A stretch of 64,000 nt of DNA from Diacronema lutheri (taxonomy: Eukaryota > Haptophyta > Pavlovophyceae > Pavlovales > Pavlovaceae). Position 1 is the first letter of the stretch; each line of letters begins with the position of its first letter. This document shows positions 3,815 through 48,196 of the stretch, one piece after another. A program made the translations under genes and the position numbers. The stretch is from contig JAGTXO010000043.1 of NCBI GenBank assembly GCA_019448385.1, positions 228,501-292,500 of the forward strand, read 5' to 3'. Under the pieces are notes generated by a model. That model was not told where the DNA came from. It saw only the letters and a list, made by a program, of their open reading frames with translations, and did not search any database.

Positions 3815-5942
3815 TCGACGGCGAGCCGCGCGGGTCGAGCGGCCCCGCCGCGGGCGAGGGCGGCGACGCGGTCGACGTGCGCGCGCTCGTGCGCGGCGGC
3901 GTGCGCAGCGTGCGCGCGCGTGCGAGTGGGCGCGTGCTTGTTGAGCCGGGCTTCTTGCAGGCCTACCCGCCGCCGGCTGGACGGCAGGCGAGCGCTCTGG
4001 GTGGCGAGGCGGACAGCGGCGGCAGCGCGCGCGCGCCCTTCGGCGCGGCTGACGGCGCGGACGGCGCGGACGGCGGCGCGGACGGCGGCGCGGACGAGGG
4101 CGCCGCGGCCGACGCGGCCGATTCGACGCTGCCTCCGCTCCGCGCAGGCGAGGCGCTTGTGCTCCTTGGCGCACACGCGCGCGCGCACTCGACGAAACCG
4201 GCGGGGCGGTTCTCAGAGGCTACGCTTGTCAAGCGGTTGGAGGAGCTTGGCATCGGTCGGCCGTCCACCTACGCGCCGACGCTGCAGGTCCTGCGCTCGC
4301 GCGAGTATGTTGCGCTCAGCGGCAGACAGCTCGTCCCCACACTGAACGGTCGCTTCGTCGACGCGTTCCTGGCCGCGCACTTTGCGCGCTACGTGGAATA
4401 CGGCTTCACCGCGCACGTCGAGGCGGAGTTGGACGAGGTGTCAGCCGGGCGGCTGACTCGGACGTCGTTGCTCGGCGCCTTCTGGCCGCCGCTCGCCGAG
4501 CTTGCCGACGCGATCAGCTCGCAGCCCGCGGCGGAGGCGTGGGCGGCGCTCGACGAGCAGCTCGGCCATCTCGCTTTCGACGCGGATGCGGCCAAGCTCG
4601 GCGAGGGCGCGCTCGGCAGCGGCGCGCGCGCGGCGAGCGCGCCGGCCGCGGCCGACGGCGGCGCGGCCGCGGACGGCGCCAGCGCCGGCGCCAGCGCCGG
4701 CGCGCCTGCGCACGCACTCCTGCCGCGCGCGTGCCCGCAGTGCGGCGACGGCCGTCTGACGATCAAGCACTCTCGCTTCGGCCCCTTCGTTGGCTGCTCG
4801 AACCATCCGGCGTGCACGCATACGAAGCCGTTTCCCCACTCAGCGCTGCAGCCCGCGGACGGCGGCGCGCTCGATCCCTCGCACTTCCCGCGCGTCCTCG
4901 GCGAGGAGGCTGACGGGTGCGAGCTGAGCGTGCGGATTGGCCCCTTTGGCGCCTACGTGCAGCGCACGCACGCGCAGCCCGACGCGCCCGACGAGGCAGC
5001 CGTCGAGAGCGCGCGGCTCGCCACGTGCGCGCGCGCTCCGGCCCCACCGCGCGGCGCGCGCGCGCGCGCCGCGCGGTGGCTTTGGCTCCGACCCCACAGC
5101 TCGCCGCCTGCGCGCAGAGGTCAAAGGGCGGTGGCTCGCCGCCCGTGCGCAGAGCGCTGCTTCACGCCCCCCACCGCCTCCCCTCGCACCATCGTTCGTG
5201 CTGCTGCTGCCCCCCCCCCCCCCTTCCCCCCCCCCCCCGTGTGCCCTTCCCCCCCCCCTCTCGCGTCTCGCGCAGGCTCGCCGTGCCCGAGCTCAAAGCT
5301 TGCTTGCGCGAGGCGGGCGCGGCGCAGACGGGGCGCAAGGCCGAGCTGCTGCACAGGCTGCGCGAGGCGCGGGGCCTGCCGCCGCCGCCGCCGCGCGCCG
5401 AGCAGCCCGAGCGGCGGACGCTGCCGTTCGCGCTCTCCGCGCACAACGTGACCTTTGAGGGCGCACGCCGCCTCTTCCTCCTTCCGCGCGATCTCGGCGA
5501 CCATCCGCAGCTCGGCGGTGCGATGAGGGCCAAGCTCGGGCTCAAGGCAGGGTACGTCGAGCACAACAGCTCCTACTACTGGCTCGAGACGCCCGAGCTG
5601 GCGTACACCGTCACGCCCGACGATGCCGCCGCGCTCGTCACGCGGACGCGCGAGGCGCGCGAGGCGGGCGCGGCGTCGCGCGCGAATGCGCCGCGCGCGC
5701 AAAAGCCGGCGGGCGCCGCGAGCGCCGCGGGCGGCAGCAAGGCGAGGGGGGGCAAAGCGAGGGCGGGCAAGGCGGTGCATGCGCAGCCCGCCGTCGCGGC
5801 CGCAGTGGATGCACAGCCCAGTCGACGGCACACGACCCCATCGCCCGCCGCTGCACCTGCTGCCCGCCGGGTGAGAAGCGCGCGTGCGCACGCCGGCGGC
5901 CCGTCCGCTGGCGGGGGCGCATCGGGCAGGGCGCTCGCCTGA
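2056..5942 (+). CDS. topA: DNA topoisomerase IA (TopA-like), organelle-targeted, with SAP domain
   Basis: CDS join(2056..5024,5276..5942), 1211 residues. The start is the first ATG in frame. It opens a basic, Ser/Ala-rich leader of about 85 residues that looks like an organelle targeting sequence. The TOPRIM domain follows (FVVESPSKAK near residue 90, DPDREGEAIAWH), then the strand-passage core with the active-site Tyr in GLITYMRTD (about residue 459). Next come Gly/Asp-rich insertions, one Cys4 zinc ribbon (CPQCGDG...GCSNHPAC) and TopA C-terminal repeats. The intron has GTGCGC and CAG ends and C-homopolymers; splicing is phase-consistent (ACG|CTC). Exon 2 begins with a SAP motif, LAVPELKACLREAG, ahead of a last TopA-type repeat (LPRDLGDHP). 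The enzyme relaxes negative supercoils by a single-strand break; mitochondrial or plastid location is inferred from the leader. The SAP domain is unusual for this family. Confidence 0.93.
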
Positions 5943-6068
5943 CTAGCGCCATGCGTGCACGCGGCAGGATGGCGGGGGACAGCACAGCAAAGAACGTCAG
6001 CGTGGTGTACAAACTGACACAGAAACGTTGCCATCCCCCGAAAACAACAGCCTCACAGAACTCTGTTT

Positions 6069-7235
6069 CTAAGCCAGACCTGACATGTGCAGCGCCGCGT
6101 TCTCCGACGACTGCCACGCGTTGCGCAAGGAGCCCATGCGCTTCACGCGGCAGCCCGGCGGCGGCAGACCCAGTGACGGCACGGCGCTGTCCAGGCCGAG
6201 CGGCGCGCCGGGCGCGACGGGCGACGACGCCGGCCTGCTGCGCGCGCCGTCGCTGCCGTTGCTCGCACTGCCCGTGCTCGTGCGGCCGCCGTTTGGGTGG
6301 CGCGCCGCCCCGACGGCCGCAACGTCGGCAGGGCCGGGCGGCCGGGCGATCAGCACCACGGTCGACGGAGCGCTGCCGTTCGGCTGCAGCGGGGCCGGTG
6401 GCTCGTCTTCGCGCGAGCCGCTCGAGCAATTGCCATTGATGGCGCCCGCCCACGCACCGCCCTTGGCGGCGGGCGCGGCGCGGTGGGGCGCACGGCCAAA
6501 GCGCACGTAGAGCGCGTATCGTGTGAGCACGAGCCCGAGCGCCAGGAGCGTGACGAGCGCCGAAAGCACCGCGACGACCATCGTGCCGCCCGACAGCCGC
6601 CCGTCCACGTCAGTGCGCCCGGGCTCGGGGCCCGCCGTGCCCGACCACGTGCGCATCGCGACGGCCGCGTCGCCCAGCTCATGGTCCAGCGCAGCCGCTC
6701 GCCTGGCGATTGCGCGCAGCGCCACGGGCACCTCGAGCGCGCAACTGCGCGCGAGCTCAGCCGGTAGGATCCCCGCGCAACCGACCGCGTCCAGTGTGCC
6801 AACGACGGAGCACGCGAGCGCGCGCGTCTTGCGCATCTGCCCGGTGCAATCGCTCGTCGTGCACACGGACTGGCACGCGCGCGCTTCCACGATGTGCTCG
6901 CCGAGAGCGCCAACGTCGCCGAGCCACGACGGCAGTCCGCCCCGGCTGACGAGCGCGCACGCGCTGCCGGGCACCGATCCGTGGCTCGTGGCCGCGCTGT
7001 CGGAGAGGACGCGCGGCGCGACGTGCCGAGCCCACGCGAGCAGCGCCATGTGCCCATCGAGCAGCGACTGCTCACAATCGCGCACGCTCGGCTGGCCATG
7101 GGCCGCGAGGCTGAGCAGCAGCAATGTGACGACGGGCCGCAATTCGCGACTGCTGAGCCCCATCGTTGGTTTGCAGCCAAAAGGAGCGCCGGCTGCAATT
7201 ATTATTGCCACGCCCGCGACTTTCCGTTGAAACAT
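6069..7235 (-). CDS. Single-pass membrane protein of unknown function
   Basis: Single exon, 388 residues from an ATG at 7235. A second in-frame ATG at 7163 would give a cleaner signal peptide (MGLSSRELRP then VVTLLLLSLAAHG), so the true start is open. The predicted outer part has several Cys (CEQSLLDG, ACQSVCTTSDC, CAGILPAELARSC) that could form disulfides. One transmembrane segment follows at about 215-243 (MVVAVLSALVTLLALGLVLT) with a basic stop-transfer end. The tail is Ser/Pro/Asn-rich. This looks like a type I plasma- or endomembrane protein, but no family is recognised. It converges with topA (126 bp between stops). A dispersed repeat overlaps its extreme 5' end. Confidence 0.55.
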   Translation of the reverse strand: MFQRKVAGVAIIIAAGAPFGCKPTMGLSSRELRPVVTLLLLSLAAHGQPSVRDCEQSLLDGHMALLAWARHVAPRVLSDSAATSHGSVPGSACALVSRGGLPSWLGDVGALGEHIVEARACQSVCTTSDCTGQMRKTRALACSVVGTLDAVGCAGILPAELARSCALEVPVALRAIARRAAALDHELGDAAVAMRTWSGTAGPEPGRTDVDGRLSGGTMVVAVLSALVTLLALGLVLTRYALYVRFGRAPHRAAPAAKGGAWAGAINGNCSSGSREDEPPAPLQPNGSAPSTVVLIARPPGPADVAAVGAARHPNGGRTSTGSASNGSDGARSRPASSPVAPGAPLGLDSAVPSLGLPPPGCRVKRMGSLRNAWQSSENAALHMSGLA

Positions 7236-7307
7236 ATACTAACGACGCTTACAGGCGGGTCAGCAGGAGGGGCGCGCACGGGGCCGAGGCTGGACAAACG
7301 GAGCGAG
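7233..7307 (+). repeat. Dispersed repeat, copy A
   Basis: About 75 bp starting TATACTAACGACGCTTACAG and running through GTCAGCAGGAGGGGCGCGCA to GGACAAACGGAGCG. It is nearly identical to the reverse complement of 14645-14720 and weakly like 30379-30430. The first 20 bases resemble a branch point (TACTAAC) followed by a 3' splice site (TTACAG). Confidence 0.8.
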
Positions 7308-7382
7308 CGAAAGGGCGCACGCAACATCAGGCCGAAATCAGGGAAACGACGTCACTAGGTCATCGTCCCGGGCTCATCAGAG

Positions 7383-9158
7383 TCAAACTGCCATCTGCAT
7401 CGCGATCTTGGCGTGCGGCTCGTACCCGACGAGCTGCAGGTGCTCCATGCGCAGCGCATCGATGTCGGTCAAGCCGTCCGCACCGACGATGCGCAGCTTG
7501 GGTGGAGGGCGCGGCGTGCGGCCGAGCTGCTCGCGCAGCGCATCGACGTGGTTCTCGTAGACTGCGGCGCGCGCGAGGGGGCGGGGCGGCGCGCATGGGC
7601 GCGCCAGCCCCGACGATACGCGCCCGCCGCGCTGGACGGTCGGCGGCGCCGCGCGGTGCGCGGTGCGCGCGCGCGCAGCCGCACCGTGCGCGTCGCCGAG
7701 TGTGTGCACAAGCTCGCCTGGCTGCAGGCCGGTGACGTGCGCGACGAGGCGCGTGAGCAGCGCGTAACTGGCAATGTTGAACGGCACGCCGAGCCCGAGG
7801 TCTGCCGAGCGCTGGTAGAGTTGGCACGACAGGCGGCCATCGTGCGCGTAGAATTGAAAGAGCACGTGGCACGGTGGAAGTGCCATTTGCGCCAAGTCGG
7901 GCGGGTTCCACGCGGAGACGACGATGCGACGGTCGTGCGGGTTGGTGCGCAGCAGCTCGATCGCGCGCGCGAGCTGGTCGACGCCCTTGCCCTCGTAGCC
8001 CGCGGCGCGGTGCGTGTAGCGGGCGCCAAAGTGACGCCACTGAAAGCCGTAGACGGGGCCGAGGTCACCCTCCTCGCGCTCGCTCAGGCCCAGGCCGTCG
8101 AGGAAGGCGCGGCTTGAGTTGCCATCCCAGATCTTGATGCCCTTCGCCTGGCGCGCACACGCACGCACGCACGCGCGCACGCGGTGCGGTGCGGTGCGCG
8201 CGGTCAGCGGCGCGCGGCGCAGCGCCCGGCGGTGTGCGCGCCTCGCGCAACGCGTGCCGCGCCGTGCCTGGAGCGTTGCAGCGGAGGTGTCGCCCGAGAT
8301 GAACCAGAAGAGCTCCTCGGCAACGCCGCGCCAAAAGACGGCCTTCGTCGTGAGCAGCGGGAACGAGTCGTCGCGCAGGTTGAAGCGCAGCTGTGCGCCG
8401 AAGACGGAACGCGTGCCGACGCGCGTCCTGTCGGAGCGGTGGTTCCCCGCGTCGATCACGTGCCGCACGAGCGCGAGGTAGCCGGCCTCGCCGTGCAGGG
8501 CGGGCGGCGTGGTCGGTGCCGGCTGCAGCGCCGTTGGCAGCCCCGCCGCCGCCGCCGCGTCGCGCGCGAGCACGACGAACTCGGGCGCCGCTCCGTCGGG
8601 GCCGGGCGCGCCGCGCGCCGCGCGCACGCGCGCGAGGCGGTCGAGGCAGCCGCTCGGGAGGAGCGCGTCGAACGCGGGCGCGGGCGCGTTGGCGGGCAAG
8701 TCGACAAACGTCACGTACGCGCGCTCGAGCCGCTCGCTCGCCAACGCCTCCGCGTATACCGCCGCGCCGCCGATCACAAAGATCGACTCGACAGCTTCGG
8801 CGGTGGGCGCCGCCGCGAGCAGCGCGAGCGCAGCGTCGAGCGAGCCGGCAACGAGGACGTCGGGCGGGAGGCAGAGGCGCGCGCGTAGCTCGGCTTCGGG
8901 TGTGCGCGAAAGCACCACATTGAGCCGCTCCGCCAGCGGGCGCGCCTTAGGCGGGAGCGACTCCCACGTCCGCCGGCCCATCACGACCGCGTTGCGCCGC
9001 AGCGGGTCGCGCGTCGAAGTGGTGAGCTGGCGGAAGTACTTGAGGTCGGCGGGGATGCGCCAGGGCAGCGAGCCCTCCGCGCCGATCCCGAGCGTCTTTC
9101 GGCACGCCGCCACCACCACGTCGAACGACCGCCGCTCGGCTGGCATCGCCTGGCACAT
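7383..9158 (-). CDS. DHFR-TS: Bifunctional dihydrofolate reductase-thymidylate synthase
   Basis: CDS complement(join(7383..7561,7685..8147,8268..9158)), about 510 residues. The start is the first ATG in frame ([18 protein letters not shown]); a second ATG 12 bases on is equally possible. DHFR occupies the N-terminal part ([39 protein letters not shown]). TS follows with [20 protein letters not shown], the catalytic Cys in [11 protein letters not shown], and YEPHAKIAM at the end. The enzyme makes dTMP from dUMP and regenerates tetrahydrofolate. Fusion of the two is the usual arrangement in plants and most protists. Intron 1 (8148-8267) has a GC donor after CTCCAG, and splicing restores [13 protein letters not shown]. 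Intron 2 (7562-7684) is GT-AG and restores GDAH-VYENHV. Both lengths are multiples of three with no stop, so unspliced reading stays open. Confidence 0.95.
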
Positions 9159-42993: not shown

Positions 42994-43380
42994 CGATTTG
43001 GGCCGTTGACCGGGGACCAGTGGTACCGGGTACGACGTATTTCTTTTTCGAGCATCGGGATGTCGGACGAAGAGCTGGGTGCGAGAGGGCAGGAAAGGAA
43101 GGTGCAGGAGAAGATGCTGGCAGCACGGCGCGAGGCCGGTCGTTCGCACTTGCACGTGTGGAGAAGAAAAGGGCGGAGGGCGCGCGGGCGCCGCCCTCCG
43201 ATCAGCGCATGGGCGTGACGAGTGACGAGTGACGAGTGACGAGTGACGAGTGACGAGTGACGAGAGACGAGTGACGAGCGACGAATGACGAGCGACGAGG
43301 CATCAAGGGCAAACGCGCCAGGGGGGCGCGCGCCACCCTCTAGGCAACACGTGCGCCCCTGGGCGTGCCGTCCTGCCCTC
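42994..43380. other. Intergenic gap with 7-bp tandem array
   Basis: 387 bp between the PHD gene start and the stop of the NDPK-MTHFR gene. It contains about 12 copies of GTGACGA and variants at 43215-43300. The first 70 bp include ACGTATTTCTTTTTCGAGC, AT-richer and promoter-like for the PHD gene. Confidence 0.6.
43215..43300. repeat. 7-bp tandem repeat (GTGACGA)n
   Basis: About 12 units of GTGACGA with variants near the end (GAGACGA, GCGACGA, ATGACGA), about 80 bp beyond the stop codon of the NDPK-MTHFR gene (minus strand). Confidence 0.9.
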
Positions 43381-45097
43381 CTAGGCGATATGCGTGCCCT
43401 TGAGCGTGTCGCCCTCGTCGAGTGCCTCTGTCGGCTGCTCGAGCAGCAGGCCGAGGCGCTGCAGGATCTGCTGCGTGTTCGCCGATTGGTTGAGCGTGTA
43501 GAAATGGAGGCCGGGCACGAGCTGCGAGGCGACCAGCTGCTTGCACAGCGCGACTGTCCAGCTGAGACCCATCTCCTTGAAGCCCTCCGCGTCCTCCTTG
43601 AGGGCCTCCGCCTTGGCCACCAGCTCAGCGGGCACGCGTGACTTGCAAAAGCCCTGCACGCACGCCGCGTGCGGCCGCGCGGCGCCGGGCGCGGCCTTCA
43701 GCGCGCAGGAACACGCAACGCTGCACGGCGTGCGGCACGGGAGGGGGTGGGAGCGCAGCTCGAGTGTCGTGGCGCGCACGCACCGTCATGCGCGTGAAGC
43801 CGCCATAGGCAGTAATGAGCATAATGCCCGGCAGGATGGGCGCGCTGATACCCTTGGCGCGCGCCTGCGTGACAAAGGCCTCAAAGACCTCAAAGTCAAA
43901 GAACATCTGAGTGATCACGCAGTCCGCACCCGCGTCGCACTTCTGCTTGAGGTAGCCCAGCTCGCGGTCAAAGTCGGCGTCGGAGCAGACGAACTGCTCG
44001 GCGGACGCGCCCGAGCCGACGGTGACGAGCCGCTTCTGCTCCGACGCGCTCAGCGGGCGGCCGAGCTCGGCGACGGGCTTGATCACGTCTGGGTGGCCCT
44101 CGGGGTAGCCCGACACCTGGATGCCGAACCAGTCGCCGAACTGCTGCCGCGTGTACCTGCACCCCGCCGGGGGCGGGCGGGGAGCGCTCGCGACGGCTGA
44201 GTTGCGCGCGCGCGCCAAGGGCGCGGCACGCGGCGGTGCTGTGCGGCGCGCGCACTTGACGAGGTCGAGCGCGCAGGAGAAGCCACCGGCGACCGCCTCC
44301 CACTTCTCCTGCCCCTTTGGCGGGTCGCCGCGCAGCGCGACGATGTTGCGGATGCCCTTGCGCTTGGCCTCGGCCAGCGCCTCGCCGCACAGCGCCGGCG
44401 CCTGGTTGGTGCATGTGAGATGCATGTTGACCTCGATGTCGTGTGCGGCGTACGCGTCCGCGCAAAGCTCGATCGTCAGCTCCGACGTCGAGCCGCCCGC
44501 GCCCCACGTGAAGTCGAGGAAGAGCGGCCGCTGCTGCGCCATGAGCGCGAGCGTCTGCCGCAGCTTTGCAACACCGTCGGCTGTCTTCGGCGGGAAGTAC
44601 TCGAACGAGATGAACGGGCGCGTGCCGTTCTCAGAAACCCAGTGCGCGATCTTGTCGACGAGCTTGATGCTCTTGTGCAGCACCGGCTCTGTCAGCTCGC
44701 TCGCGCCGAACCAGCGCGTCGCGTCGGCGCGCGCACCGTCGGCGTCGGCCGCTGGCTCGACAACGCACGACGACGAACCGCTGCCTAGGTCGCCGCGGAT
44801 TGTGCCGGGCGCGCACGTGAGGGGCGCGAGCGAGTCGCCAGCCATCGCGAGCGCCGTGCTCACCGCCGACGCGCCATACACCACGACGCACACGCACGGG
44901 CCCTCGACGAGCGCCGCGGCGCGCGTCGCCGCGTCCGGCTGGCCAGCGTACCGCGACTCGGCGACCGAGCGCGTGACGTTGAGCATCTTGAGCCCAATCA
45001 CGGCAAAGCCACGCCGCTCAAAGCGCCCGACGACGTCGGAGACGAGGCCTCGACGGACCACGTCCGGCATGATGAGCACCGTCGTGAACTCGCTCAT
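43381..45097 (-). CDS. MTHFR: NDP-kinase-like domain fused to methylenetetrahydrofolate reductase
   Basis: CDS complement(join(43381..43653,43784..44156,44256..45097)), 495 residues. Residues 4-137 are a nucleoside diphosphate kinase fold: TTVLIMPDVVRRGLVSDVVG, RFERRGFAVIGLKMLNVTRS, PGTIRGDL, TRWFGASEL. The family's Lys12 (IKPDG) is Met10, and the phospho-His118 position is Glu114, so NDP-kinase activity is unlikely. In the same exon follows an MTHFR catalytic barrel: RPFISFEYFPPKTADGVAKL, LDFTWGAGGSTSELT, NMHLTCTNQA, IRNIVALRGDPPKGQEKWEA, FGIQVSGYPEGHPD, CDAGADCVITQMFFD, PILPGIMLITAYGGFTRM, GLHFYTLNQSANTQQILQRL. It reduces 5,10-methylene- to 5-methyl-tetrahydrofolate. The C-terminal SAM-binding regulatory domain of most eukaryotic MTHFRs is absent. 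Introns are phase-consistent (LV-K-YTRQQ, RMT-GFCKSR). Starts are 81 bp from the divergent ClpR gene. Confidence 0.92.
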
Positions 45098-45178: not shown

Positions 45179-46190
45179 ATGGCCGCTTTCGCGCTGACGG
45201 TGGTGTCGGCCCTCGCGCTCGTTGCGCCGCCGGCGCGCCTCGGTGCTCCGGCCTCGCGCGCCGGGCGTGGCGTGCCCGCGCGACCTATGGCTGCCGCGCG
45301 CGTCGCAATGGGCGCGATCAACATTGACGGCGTGCGCATCGGCCCGCCGCCCGATTTGCCGTCGCTACTGCTGCACAACCGCATCGTCTATGTCGGCACC
45401 GGCCTCGTGCCGCAGGTGGCTGAGCTGATCGTCGCGCAGCTGCTGTACATCCAGGCACGCTTCGACCACTCGCCCGCCGCCGCGCGGCCGGGCGCCGCCT
45501 GCCCACCCGACCGCCCGCCCTTACGCCGCGACGCGCGCGCGCGCGCGCTCGCGCGCGCGTCGCGCACCCGCGCAGTTTGACTCTGGCGACAAGCCCTACT
45601 TCATGTACATCAACTCGCCGGGGACGGCGTCGCAGGACGGGATGACGGGCTTTGAGACCGACGCCTTCGCTATCGCCGACACGATGCGCTACATCCGCCC
45701 CGAGGCGCAGACGATCTGCCTCGGCATGGCGTACGGCACCGCTGCGATGCTCCTCGCGTCGGGCGCGCGCGGCAAGCGCGCGATGCTGCCCAACGCGGTC
45801 GCGATGCTGCACCAGCCGCGTTCGCGCACGCAGGGCCAGGCAAGTGACATTTCGCTTCGCGCCAAGGAGGTGCTTTACAACCGGCGGGTGCTTGCATCGC
45901 TGCTCGCAGAGCGGTGCGGCCGCCAGCTCGGCACCGTCGAGGAGGACATGGGCAGGACCAAGTACCTGACCGCGGAGGAGTGCAAGGCGTACGGACTCGT
46001 GGACACTGTGCTCCAGAGCGACGCGGTGCGCGCATCGTGCGCACGCGTCGCCGCGCCGCGTCGCGGCTCGCGCTGCGACGCTGCACGCGCCGCGCGCCGC
46101 GCTGAGCTCGCGCGTGCGGCCCGCGCCCGCGCCGCGCCGCGCGCCTTACAGAGCCTGCCTGCCGTACCCACCTTCATGAACAAGCTTTAA
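45179..46190 (+). CDS. CLPR: Plastid ClpR (non-catalytic Clp protease subunit)
   Basis: CDS join(45179..45454,45576..46025,46152..46190), 254 residues. The leader MAAFALTVVSALALVAPPAR then LGAPASRAGRGVPARPMA looks like a signal peptide followed by a transit peptide, as in algae with secondary plastids. ClpP-fold motifs: LLLHNRIVYVGTGLVPQVAE, YINSPGTASQDGM, MLHQPRSRTQGQASDI, EEDMGRTKYLTAEECKAYGL. The catalytic Ser motif is GMAYGTAAMLL; Ser is replaced by Gly146, the YG signature of ClpR paralogues, while the His (AMLHQP) is kept. ClpR subunits build the plastid Clp core without proteolysis. Intron 1 has a GC donor (CAG|GCACGC); the spliced sequence LLYIQ-FDSGDKPYF matches the family. It converges with the sterol reductase gene (183 bp). 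Confidence 0.9.
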
Positions 46191-46373: not shown

Positions 46374-48032
46374 TCAGTAGATGCCGGGCACGAACGTGTA
46401 GGGCACGAGCGCCGTGTACCGCTCCCAGTCGCGGCCGTACTTTGCCGCACACCGCTGCTGGTCGCGGTGTGCACGGTGCACGATCATCGCGAGGAAGAAG
46501 ACGAAGTAGAAGTAGGGGATCAGCGAGCTGAAGCCGCACGTGAGGCCCCATGCGAGCGCCTGCCACGCGCGCGGCGTGCGAGGAACGTGGCGCGTTACGC
46601 TGCGCGCGCCGGGCGCGCATGGCAGGGCGGAGCACTGGGCAGATGCCTACTCACCATCGCAATGTCCGCCGTGTAGTTCACCTTGCGCGCCACGCCCCAC
46701 CAGCCGGAGGTGAGCAGCTTCGAGCCGTGCTCCGTTTGGATGTACTTGGCATCCTGCGGAGGCACGACGCGCGCGGCCGTGCGGGGCGACACGGCGTCGG
46801 GTGCGCGCGCGCGCGCAGAACGCGGGGCGACGCACGCGGCGAAGGGCGCGCACCTTGAGGAAACGTCCCGGCAGCCACGGGAGGAAGAGGCCAATCCTCC
46901 AGCGGAAGGTGCCCTCCTGCTGCATCCGGAAGTAGCAACGCTGGGAGTTGGACACATCCCATACGTACCAGCCGGCGAGGAGCAGCAACAGCGTGGCCGC
47001 CGTGTACGCAGCAGAGTGCTCAAAGGGCGGGAGGGAGGCGAGGTAGATGGACTGGTAGCAGTAGGTGAAGGGGACGCCTGCAAGGTTCCAGAAGATGAGC
47101 ATCCAACCCCACTTCTCGTAAAAGATGTCCCACGTCACGGGGATCCCCTCCTCGCCGCGCATGATCGTGTGCGTGTACAGGCCATGTGCGAGCACCATCA
47201 GGCACATTGGCCCAGAAATGCTCCCGTGCCGGCGGAGCTGCAGGAGCGCGGCGGAGAGGGTGAGGAGGAAGAGCACGATCCACGAGACGCGCGCCTCCGC
47301 GAACATCTTGAGGTCGAGCGAGCCGATGCGCGGGTTGAGCGGCGCTCCCATGAAAAAGTCGTACAGCCGGTGGCCTGACATCCGGTGCTGCGTGCCGAGG
47401 CAGAGCGCGCCAACGTAGGCGCCGATCGCGGTCACGTCGGCGACGATGATGGCTGATGTCATGTACGCGCCCAGATCTGCCTGAATCCCCGCCAGGTCGA
47501 AGGCGCCCGACATGTGGAGCGCTGCGAGGCCTGCGAGCGAGAGCGTCCAGCAGCCGAGCCCGTTGCAGCAGTAGGAGAGGCGCACGCCGCCAAGGTGGGG
47601 GAGCGGATAGCCCTGCACTTCGTGGCCGGGCACGCACATCGCGAGCACCGCCTGCACAACGATGAAGAGCACGTACGCGCCGACCGTGCGCGCGGTCGGC
47701 GCGCAGCCCGTCCGCACCTGGTGCGCAAAGTCGGCCCAGTCCGTCACCACGAGCGACGCGTTGTTATGCGTGATGCAATACCAAAAGTAGTAAAGCTGCG
47801 CGTGCGACCAGACAATGAGCGCCAGCGCGCCCCAGGTCCCGCCAAACTCGAAGCCCTCCTCCAGTGCCTTGGCCTTGGCGTCGCGCGCGCCGCGCGCTGC
47901 GCCATTGTGCTTCGCGACGCCGTTGGCGGCGCCGTTGGCGGCGCCGTTGGTGGCGCCGTTGGCAAGGCCATGCGCCGCGCCTTTCACCGCGGCGCCGTTG
48001 CTGCGCGTCGTCACTCCTGCCGTGATCGTCAT
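46374..48032 (-). CDS. ERG4: Sterol C-24(28)/C-14 reductase family protein, ERG4-like
   Basis: CDS complement(join(46374..46559,46655..46753,46854..48032)), 487 residues. A multi-pass ER membrane enzyme using NADPH to reduce a sterol double bond. After a low-complexity NGAANGAANG leader there are several hydrophobic helices. ERG4-type motifs: YEKWGWMLIFWNLAGVPFTY, LLAGWYVWDVSNSQRCYFRM, GSKLLTSGWWGVARKVNYTA, and the C-terminal ALVPYTFVPGIY. The wording WMLIFWNLAGVPFTYC favours the C-24(28) reductase ERG4 over ERG24 or DHCR7, but substrate specificity cannot be settled from sequence. The donor of intron 2 is GTGAGT, the strongest consensus in the window; splices give RFLK-DAKYIQ and DIAM-ALAWGL. 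Confidence 0.88.
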
Positions 48033-48196
48033 GGCCGCGACCGCCCGGAACGCGCCCGCGCAACCAGGCCGGTTGCCGACTTCGGTGTTGGTCGGTCCGA
48101 AGATGGGCGAAAGCCGCCGCGGATTGAATTTGCGGGGTCAATTGACATCAAGTGTTATCCGGCCGTGACACACGGCGCAGCCAAAGTCACATCGCG

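Follow-up and report, generated by a model that had tools for sequence, protein, structure and literature searches.

A pseudo-NDPK domain fused to a eukaryotic-type MTHFR in Diacronema lutheri, and similar N-terminal heads on MetRS and UBA5

The window analysed here is a 64-kb stretch (64,000 nucleotides) of the genome of the pavlovophyte alga Diacronema lutheri, with a GC content of 68-82% per 2 kb. Its minus strand carries a gene with three exons (45097-44256, 44156-43784 and 43653-43381), which together give 495 codons and a stop codon and encode an NDPK-derived domain, here called the head, followed by an MTHFR barrel. Both introns were placed by us, with GT-AG borders and the reading frame kept. 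The gene is composed of the following features:

44256..45097, minus strand: exon 1, coding for residues 1-280 plus two bases: start codon, pseudo-NDPK domain, linker and the beginning of the MTHFR barrel
44687..45091, minus strand: pseudo-NDPK domain, residues 3-137, with Met10 at 45068-45070 and Glu114 at 44756-44758
44624..44686, minus strand: linker, residues 138-158, without methionine
44256..44623, minus strand: first part of the MTHFR barrel, from residue 159, with Glu166 within FEYFPP
44157..44255, minus strand: intron 1, 99 bases, GT-AG
43784..44156, minus strand: exon 2, which continues the MTHFR barrel and has a stretch that exceeds its counterpart in PDB relatives by about 30-35 residues
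43654..43783, minus strand: intron 2, 130 bases, GT-AG
43381..43653, minus strand: exon 3, which completes the MTHFR barrel and holds the stop codon, with no MTHFR_C domain after it

A ClpP-like gene occupies 45179-46190 on the plus strand (CLP_protease, 146.4 bits on 45429-46190), and its likely start (45179, judged by eye) is 81 bases away from the start codon of the fusion gene on the opposite strand, so that one promoter region may serve both genes. A sterol reductase of the ERG4/ERG24 family, matched in two pieces (240.5 and 93.3 bits), lies at 46374-48137 on the minus strand, and just downstream of the fusion gene, at 43215-43299, about 12 GTGACGA repeats form an array.

Exon 1 is a single open frame. 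Its start codon at 45097 is preceded, 11 codons upstream, by an in-frame stop, and no other in-frame ATG comes between the two. Methionines occur at residues 1, 10, 38 and 85 and next at 186, with none between residue 85 and the barrel residue Glu166, which we take to be catalytic by its correspondence to human MTHFR Glu63. Because Met186 lies beyond Glu166 and the earlier methionines are all at residues 1 to 85, no ATG start would yield an MTHFR free of NDPK sequence. The third-codon-position GC is alike in the NDPK part (0.88) and the MTHFR parts (0.89-0.92), which fits a single coding sequence. The sequence-only reading, which had placed an NDPK-like domain and MTHFR in one exon, is borne out: Pfam gives NDK and then MTHFR, the interval that it had delimited is exactly exon 1 (the strand, absent from it, is minus), the motifs that it quoted, Met10 and Glu114 are all present as given, and the frame break at the junction that would have split the gene in two was looked for and is absent, with no stop between the domains. 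As the fusion is read from genomic sequence, two genes or a misassembly might have been taken for one, but this is very improbable given the uninterrupted exon with no ATG between the domains, the in-frame stop before the first ATG, and two further NDPK heads on other contigs whose frames are likewise open from head through enzyme.

The MTHFR profile PF02219 matches residues 159-280 of exon 1 alone (128.4 bits, Pfam) and residues 159-473 of the spliced 495-aa protein (315 bits, profile positions 9-287 of 287). The barrel also scores above the cut-off of the NCBIfam eukaryotic MTHFR equivalog TIGR00677 (320.7 bits vs 310.05) and contains the FEYFPP, LRGDPP and QMFFD motifs. Its best PDB matches are 8uy2 (233.6 bits, with 8uy1 as a near copy), 8qa4 (214.4) and 6fnu (183.7), followed by the lower matches 3apt (178) and 3fst (111.7); we take these five structures to come from Chaetomium, human, yeast, Thermus and E. 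coli, respectively. Judged from its sequence, the fused protein is a eukaryotic-type MTHFR catalytic domain with a complete barrel. The longer stretch in exon 2 (residues ~305-341) splits the barrel alignments.

No MTHFR_C domain was found by Pfam in the fused protein, which ends 22 residues past the barrel match. Both MTHFR_C matches in the genome (2/2) are on another contig, C37, where a second MTHFR is encoded in several exons on the plus strand (L017 ~4430-8030), with MTHFR_C at 195.6 bits; the pieces that match are separated by repeated sequence rich in proline. As this gene carries MTHFR_C, the alga is not without a SAM-type MTHFR. The two barrels share 42% identity over 139 columns, compared with 49% between 8uy2 and 8qa4; the pair is therefore old, and a recent duplication was dropped as an explanation. 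The domain missing from the fused protein bears on assembly as well as on regulation: in the available parts of the sources, human MTHFR dimerises through its regulatory domain, and its catalytic domains are not part of the interface (PMC5995969), and the same is described for cMTHFR, a model enzyme, in a paper in which 6fcx is the human MTHFR structure (PMC11183114).

At the other end of the protein, the NDK profile PF00334 matches residues 3-134 of exon 1 (68.3 bits, E 8.1e-19, cut-off 27) and residues 4-134 of the 495-aa protein (66.6 bits), covering profile positions 1-134 or 2-134 of 135 and passing the Pfam gathering score, so that the profile search that the sequence-only reading had proposed for this part came out positive. 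The best PDB match is 1lwx (E 1.7e-21, residues 3-137). The head stays below the NCBIfam NDK equivalog cut-offs (best 70.9 bits vs 155). Its active site was read at 11 positions aligned with 1npk, presumably the group I NDPK of Dictyostelium, and K12, Y52, F60, R88, T94, R105, N115, H118, G119, S120 and E129 correspond to M, Y, D, L, S, R, C, E, P, A and D, respectively; only Tyr52 and Arg105 are kept (2/11). Among 36 other NDK rows, five of them viral, the Lys12 column holds K in 36/36 and the phospho-His column H in all 35 rows that are filled there, and within the alga's own genome all 11 residues are present in the NDK domains of C9, C76 and C30 and in one domain of a C9 multi-domain protein. 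The loss of both NDPK catalytic residues (Lys12 to Met, His118 to Glu) claimed earlier is thus real and extends to 9 of the 11 active-site residues. On this alignment, phosphotransfer via His118 is excluded in the MTHFR head, and nucleotide binding in the usual mode appears unlikely, because Lys12, His118, the base-stacking Phe, Arg88, Thr94, Asn115, Gly119, Ser120 and Glu129 are all changed. The C9 multi-domain protein (C9:203584-204798, L009) has three NDK stretches and a Dpy-30 motif; two of the stretches have lost catalytic residues and the third is the one with 11/11.

The genome searched is that of one eukaryote (assembly of 43,492,796 bases in 103 contigs). It yields at least 11 NDK matches over the cut-off, a lower bound with genes seen exon by exon, and among those listed are three N-terminal heads, that of the fused MTHFR and the following two:

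Contig C70, L018:3356-6781, plus strand: MetRS with an NDPK head, head 95.6 bits
Contig C73, L019:2998-4695, minus strand: UBA5 with an NDPK head, head 56.3 bits

In the MetRS head the catalytic His is replaced by Glu and the Lys is kept, and the enzyme part consists of tRNA-synt_1g (479.3 bits) and a C-terminal tRNA-binding domain, with a cytoplasmic methionine--tRNA ligase as the best PDB match (666.3 bits). In the UBA5 head both Lys and His are lost; a ThiF domain follows, and the protein has UBA5 as its best PDB match (470.5 bits), which extends through the WGIEL motif. Both frames are open from head into enzyme, and both heads are joined to their enzymes by long low-complexity linkers. 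The start codon of the C70 MetRS is uncertain because its frame stays open further upstream; the MTHFR and UBA5 heads start at the first ATG of their own frames, immediately before the first NDPK strand, which leaves no room for a targeting peptide. Another MetRS gene, on contig C9, has no NDK match nearby.

The MTHFR and MetRS heads are sisters in a 37-row tree (98/86, supported), and again in further trees (96/84, and 96/93 without the UBA5 head). All three heads come out together in the 37-row tree (93/93) and in a reduced tree without five divergent own-genome rows (85/90), a grouping that is not starred. Two other trees each leave out one more head, and when this is the MTHFR head, MetRS and UBA5 heads group at 81/77 with a long-branch warning. 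The MTHFR head branch is long (3.1 in the 37-row tree, 3.4-3.7 in the later trees), as is that of the UBA5 head, and the letter make-up of the MTHFR head is flagged as unlike that of the alignment. In AU tests, whose groups were chosen after the tree was seen, holding the MetRS head together with two canonical NDKs is rejected (p-AU 0.0195), and rejection is not reached when the MTHFR head (0.09) or the UBA5 head (0.37) is held with canonical NDKs. By raw score, the best other genome match of the MTHFR head is the MetRS head (9.0e-18, 44%), followed by the canonical C9 NDK (3.1e-16, 34%), while this same C9 NDK comes first among the other matches of the MetRS head (7.8e-20) and of the UBA5 head (7.9e-15). 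Raw scores thus do not set the heads apart as a group. Overall, a common origin is supported for the MTHFR and MetRS heads and decided neither way for the UBA5 head; as far as the alignments can tell, the former two probably go back to a single group I NDPK ancestor.

Searches with single heads also gave weak matches. Matches to the MetRS head on C29, C75, C89 and C45 (E 0.018 to 1.8) look like chance by eye and were rejected as extra heads; further weak matches were seen for the UBA5 head on C12 and C4 (E 0.054 and 8.2) and for the MTHFR head at C9:1293391 and on C20 (E 3.3 and 5.1). Against viral contigs, no relatives were obtained with the exon-1 protein (17 pattern stretches), the UBA5 head (87) or the MetRS fusion, of which the N-terminal part served as query (24). 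When the three heads were aligned and used together, 15 stretches and 8 loci with 27-45% identity came up, some of which were used as NDK rows. A canonical NDK query against genome contigs gave 204 stretches and 175 relatives; among the best 80 of these 175, which were kept, 31 entered the alignment and 18 the trees and the interface test.

For the interface test, the dimer and trimer interface positions of M. tuberculosis NDPK given in the available part of PMC7554756 were transferred by an offset on the Dictyostelium row, no M. tuberculosis sequence being used, with a one-residue difference that we placed before position 94. Six domains were tested against 24 canonical rows (18 bacterial or archaeal, four PDB and two own), with five viral rows, Dl_C30 and Dl_C9multi_3 left out, by 20,000 random draws and 124 circular shifts. 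The p values are uncorrected over 18 tests, and the circular shifts are a partial control, the interface positions lying in runs and partly in the well-kept N-terminal part.

Of the positions so transferred, 12 of 14 for the dimer and 20 of 27 for the trimer hold, in the MTHFR head, a residue that also occurs among canonical NDKs; the figures are 2 of 7 for the active site and 43 of 84 for other positions. Averaged over the 41 interface positions, the loss of similarity of this head relative to canonical NDKs is -0.54; over the remaining non-active positions it is -2.30. Sparing of dimer and trimer positions together reaches p 0.0001, with 0/124 circular shifts, and is also seen for dimer positions alone (p 0.0058, 4/124) and trimer positions alone (p 0.0096, 9/124), all uncorrected over the 18 tests. 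The MetRS head (dimer p 0.065, 8/124 shifts; dimer and trimer p 0.11) and the UBA5 head (dimer p 0.072, 11/124 shifts; dimer and trimer p 0.43) show less sparing, and none for the trimer interface (p 0.40 and 0.81), so that in these two heads the aligned residues suggest a trend, for the dimer surface only. Three degenerate NDPK domains of the same genome, used as controls, show no dimer sparing (p 0.27, 0.17 and 0.31), and one of them reaches p 0.036 for dimer and trimer together. Within the reach of the transferred positions, the MTHFR head thus combines spared oligomer-interface positions with a lost nucleotide site.

The explanation that we prefer, with slightly better than even confidence, is that the gene produces one MTHFR, probably cytosolic, in which a eukaryotic-type barrel is preceded by an NDPK-derived assembly module. 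The pseudo-domain would still fold like an NDPK and would dimerise or oligomerise the fused enzyme, because the regulatory domain, which carries the dimer interface in the MTHFR papers cited above, is absent, and the NDPK dimer and trimer positions taken from the cited list are the best kept. If the head replaces a function of the missing C-terminal domain, it would be dimerisation and not SAM sensing, since the interface is spared and the regulatory domain is what forms the dimer interface in those sources; the fused enzyme would then be a SAM-insensitive partner of the C37 MTHFR. The head also has the appearance of a reused assembly module because two unrelated enzymes carry a similar N-terminal domain.

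The sequence-only reading had instead seen in the head a nucleotide- or effector-binding module that replaces the SAM-sensing domain and would control MTHFR allosterically. The NDPK fold binds nucleotides, two of the active-site residues (Tyr52 and Arg105) remain in the head, and the C-terminal SAM domain is indeed missing, which is the part of the proposal that stands. Nucleotide binding at the usual site, however, finds little room among nine changed residues that include Lys, Arg88 and the base-stacking Phe, and a stand-in for SAM sensing has against it the MTHFR_C domain of the C37 enzyme and the presence of heads on MetRS and UBA5, tethered by long low-complexity linkers. The wider idea that the head substitutes for a SAM sensor missing from the whole cell was dropped, as the C37 gene has a SAM-binding domain, and with a SAM-type enzyme encoded there the replacement idea as such is weakened. 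We consider a sensor role quite unlikely, although the head could still bind some other effector.

Less remote, yet still improbable, is that the head docks into oligomers of active NDPK, which would then act as a scaffold for MTHFR and perhaps for MetRS and UBA5. The genes on C9 and C76 do encode canonical NDPKs whose active sites are complete, and the MTHFR head is canonical at most of the transferred dimer and trimer positions, but a homotypic interface accounts for the same data, and trimer sparing is not seen in the MetRS and UBA5 heads at those positions. Neutral fusion, with the NDPK part decaying as a passenger of no function, would agree with the long branch of the MTHFR head and with the differing degree of decay among the three heads; against it are an open frame whose codon-position GC matches the rest of the gene, the spared interface positions of the MTHFR head as transferred, and the occurrence of such heads on three proteins of one genome, and we regard it as about as doubtful as the sensor role.

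If the head is the assembly module that we prefer, it suggests a second way of building MTHFR oligomers that needs no SAM-sensing domain, in a cell that also has a SAM-type copy. Speculatively, and with a low probability, the dead NDPK heads of pavlovophytes might be homotypic docking tags that join cytosolic MetRS, SAM-insensitive MTHFR and UBA5 in one assembly, perhaps on active NDPK, and couple methionine supply to tRNA charging, the tags having the role that GST-like domains have in animal synthetase complexes. If true, the reuse of a catalytic fold as the head of three unrelated housekeeping enzymes in one genome would clearly exemplify how an enzyme domain is turned into a structural module, and a testable physical link is predicted that would connect methionine supply with tRNA charging and with the UFM1 pathway.

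No description of an NDPK-MTHFR fusion was found among the papers listed from open-licence PubMed Central text, nor in the available part of PMC13215547, in agreement with the sequence-only reading, which knew of none, although database annotation may exist. The fusion is a new combination and not a new kind of system, because dead NDPK domains and synthetase fusions are each already known. Compared with eukaryotic MTHFR (8uy2, 8qa4/6fcx and 6fnu), the fused protein is alike in its barrel, equivalog score and motifs, and differs in its NDPK-derived N-terminal head, its lack of MTHFR_C and the longer stretch inside the barrel. Group I NDPK is matched across the whole domain, and the head keeps PGTIRGD and most of the transferred interface positions; it departs from that group in its catalytic residues (His to Glu, Lys to Met), its fusion to another enzyme and its sub-equivalog score.

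Degenerate NDPK domains also occur in multidomain proteins such as RP2 and the group II members NME7 and NME8, which are mainly ciliary or multi-NDPK proteins. Like the head, the domains of NME7 and NME8 are NDPK domains within larger proteins, whereas the heads described here sit on housekeeping enzymes and the MTHFR head falls in the tree with group I, apart from the group II-like domains of the genome. According to the available part of PMC13256974, group II members were long held to be inactive, and domain B of NME7 is inactive yet indispensable. The C70 MetRS resembles synthetases with appended assembly domains, in that an N-terminal fold has been added to a cytosolic synthetase. Human MetRS has a GST-like appended domain, of a kind that forms oligomers; in the alga this place is taken instead by an NDPK fold, which MTHFR and UBA5 carry in similar form.
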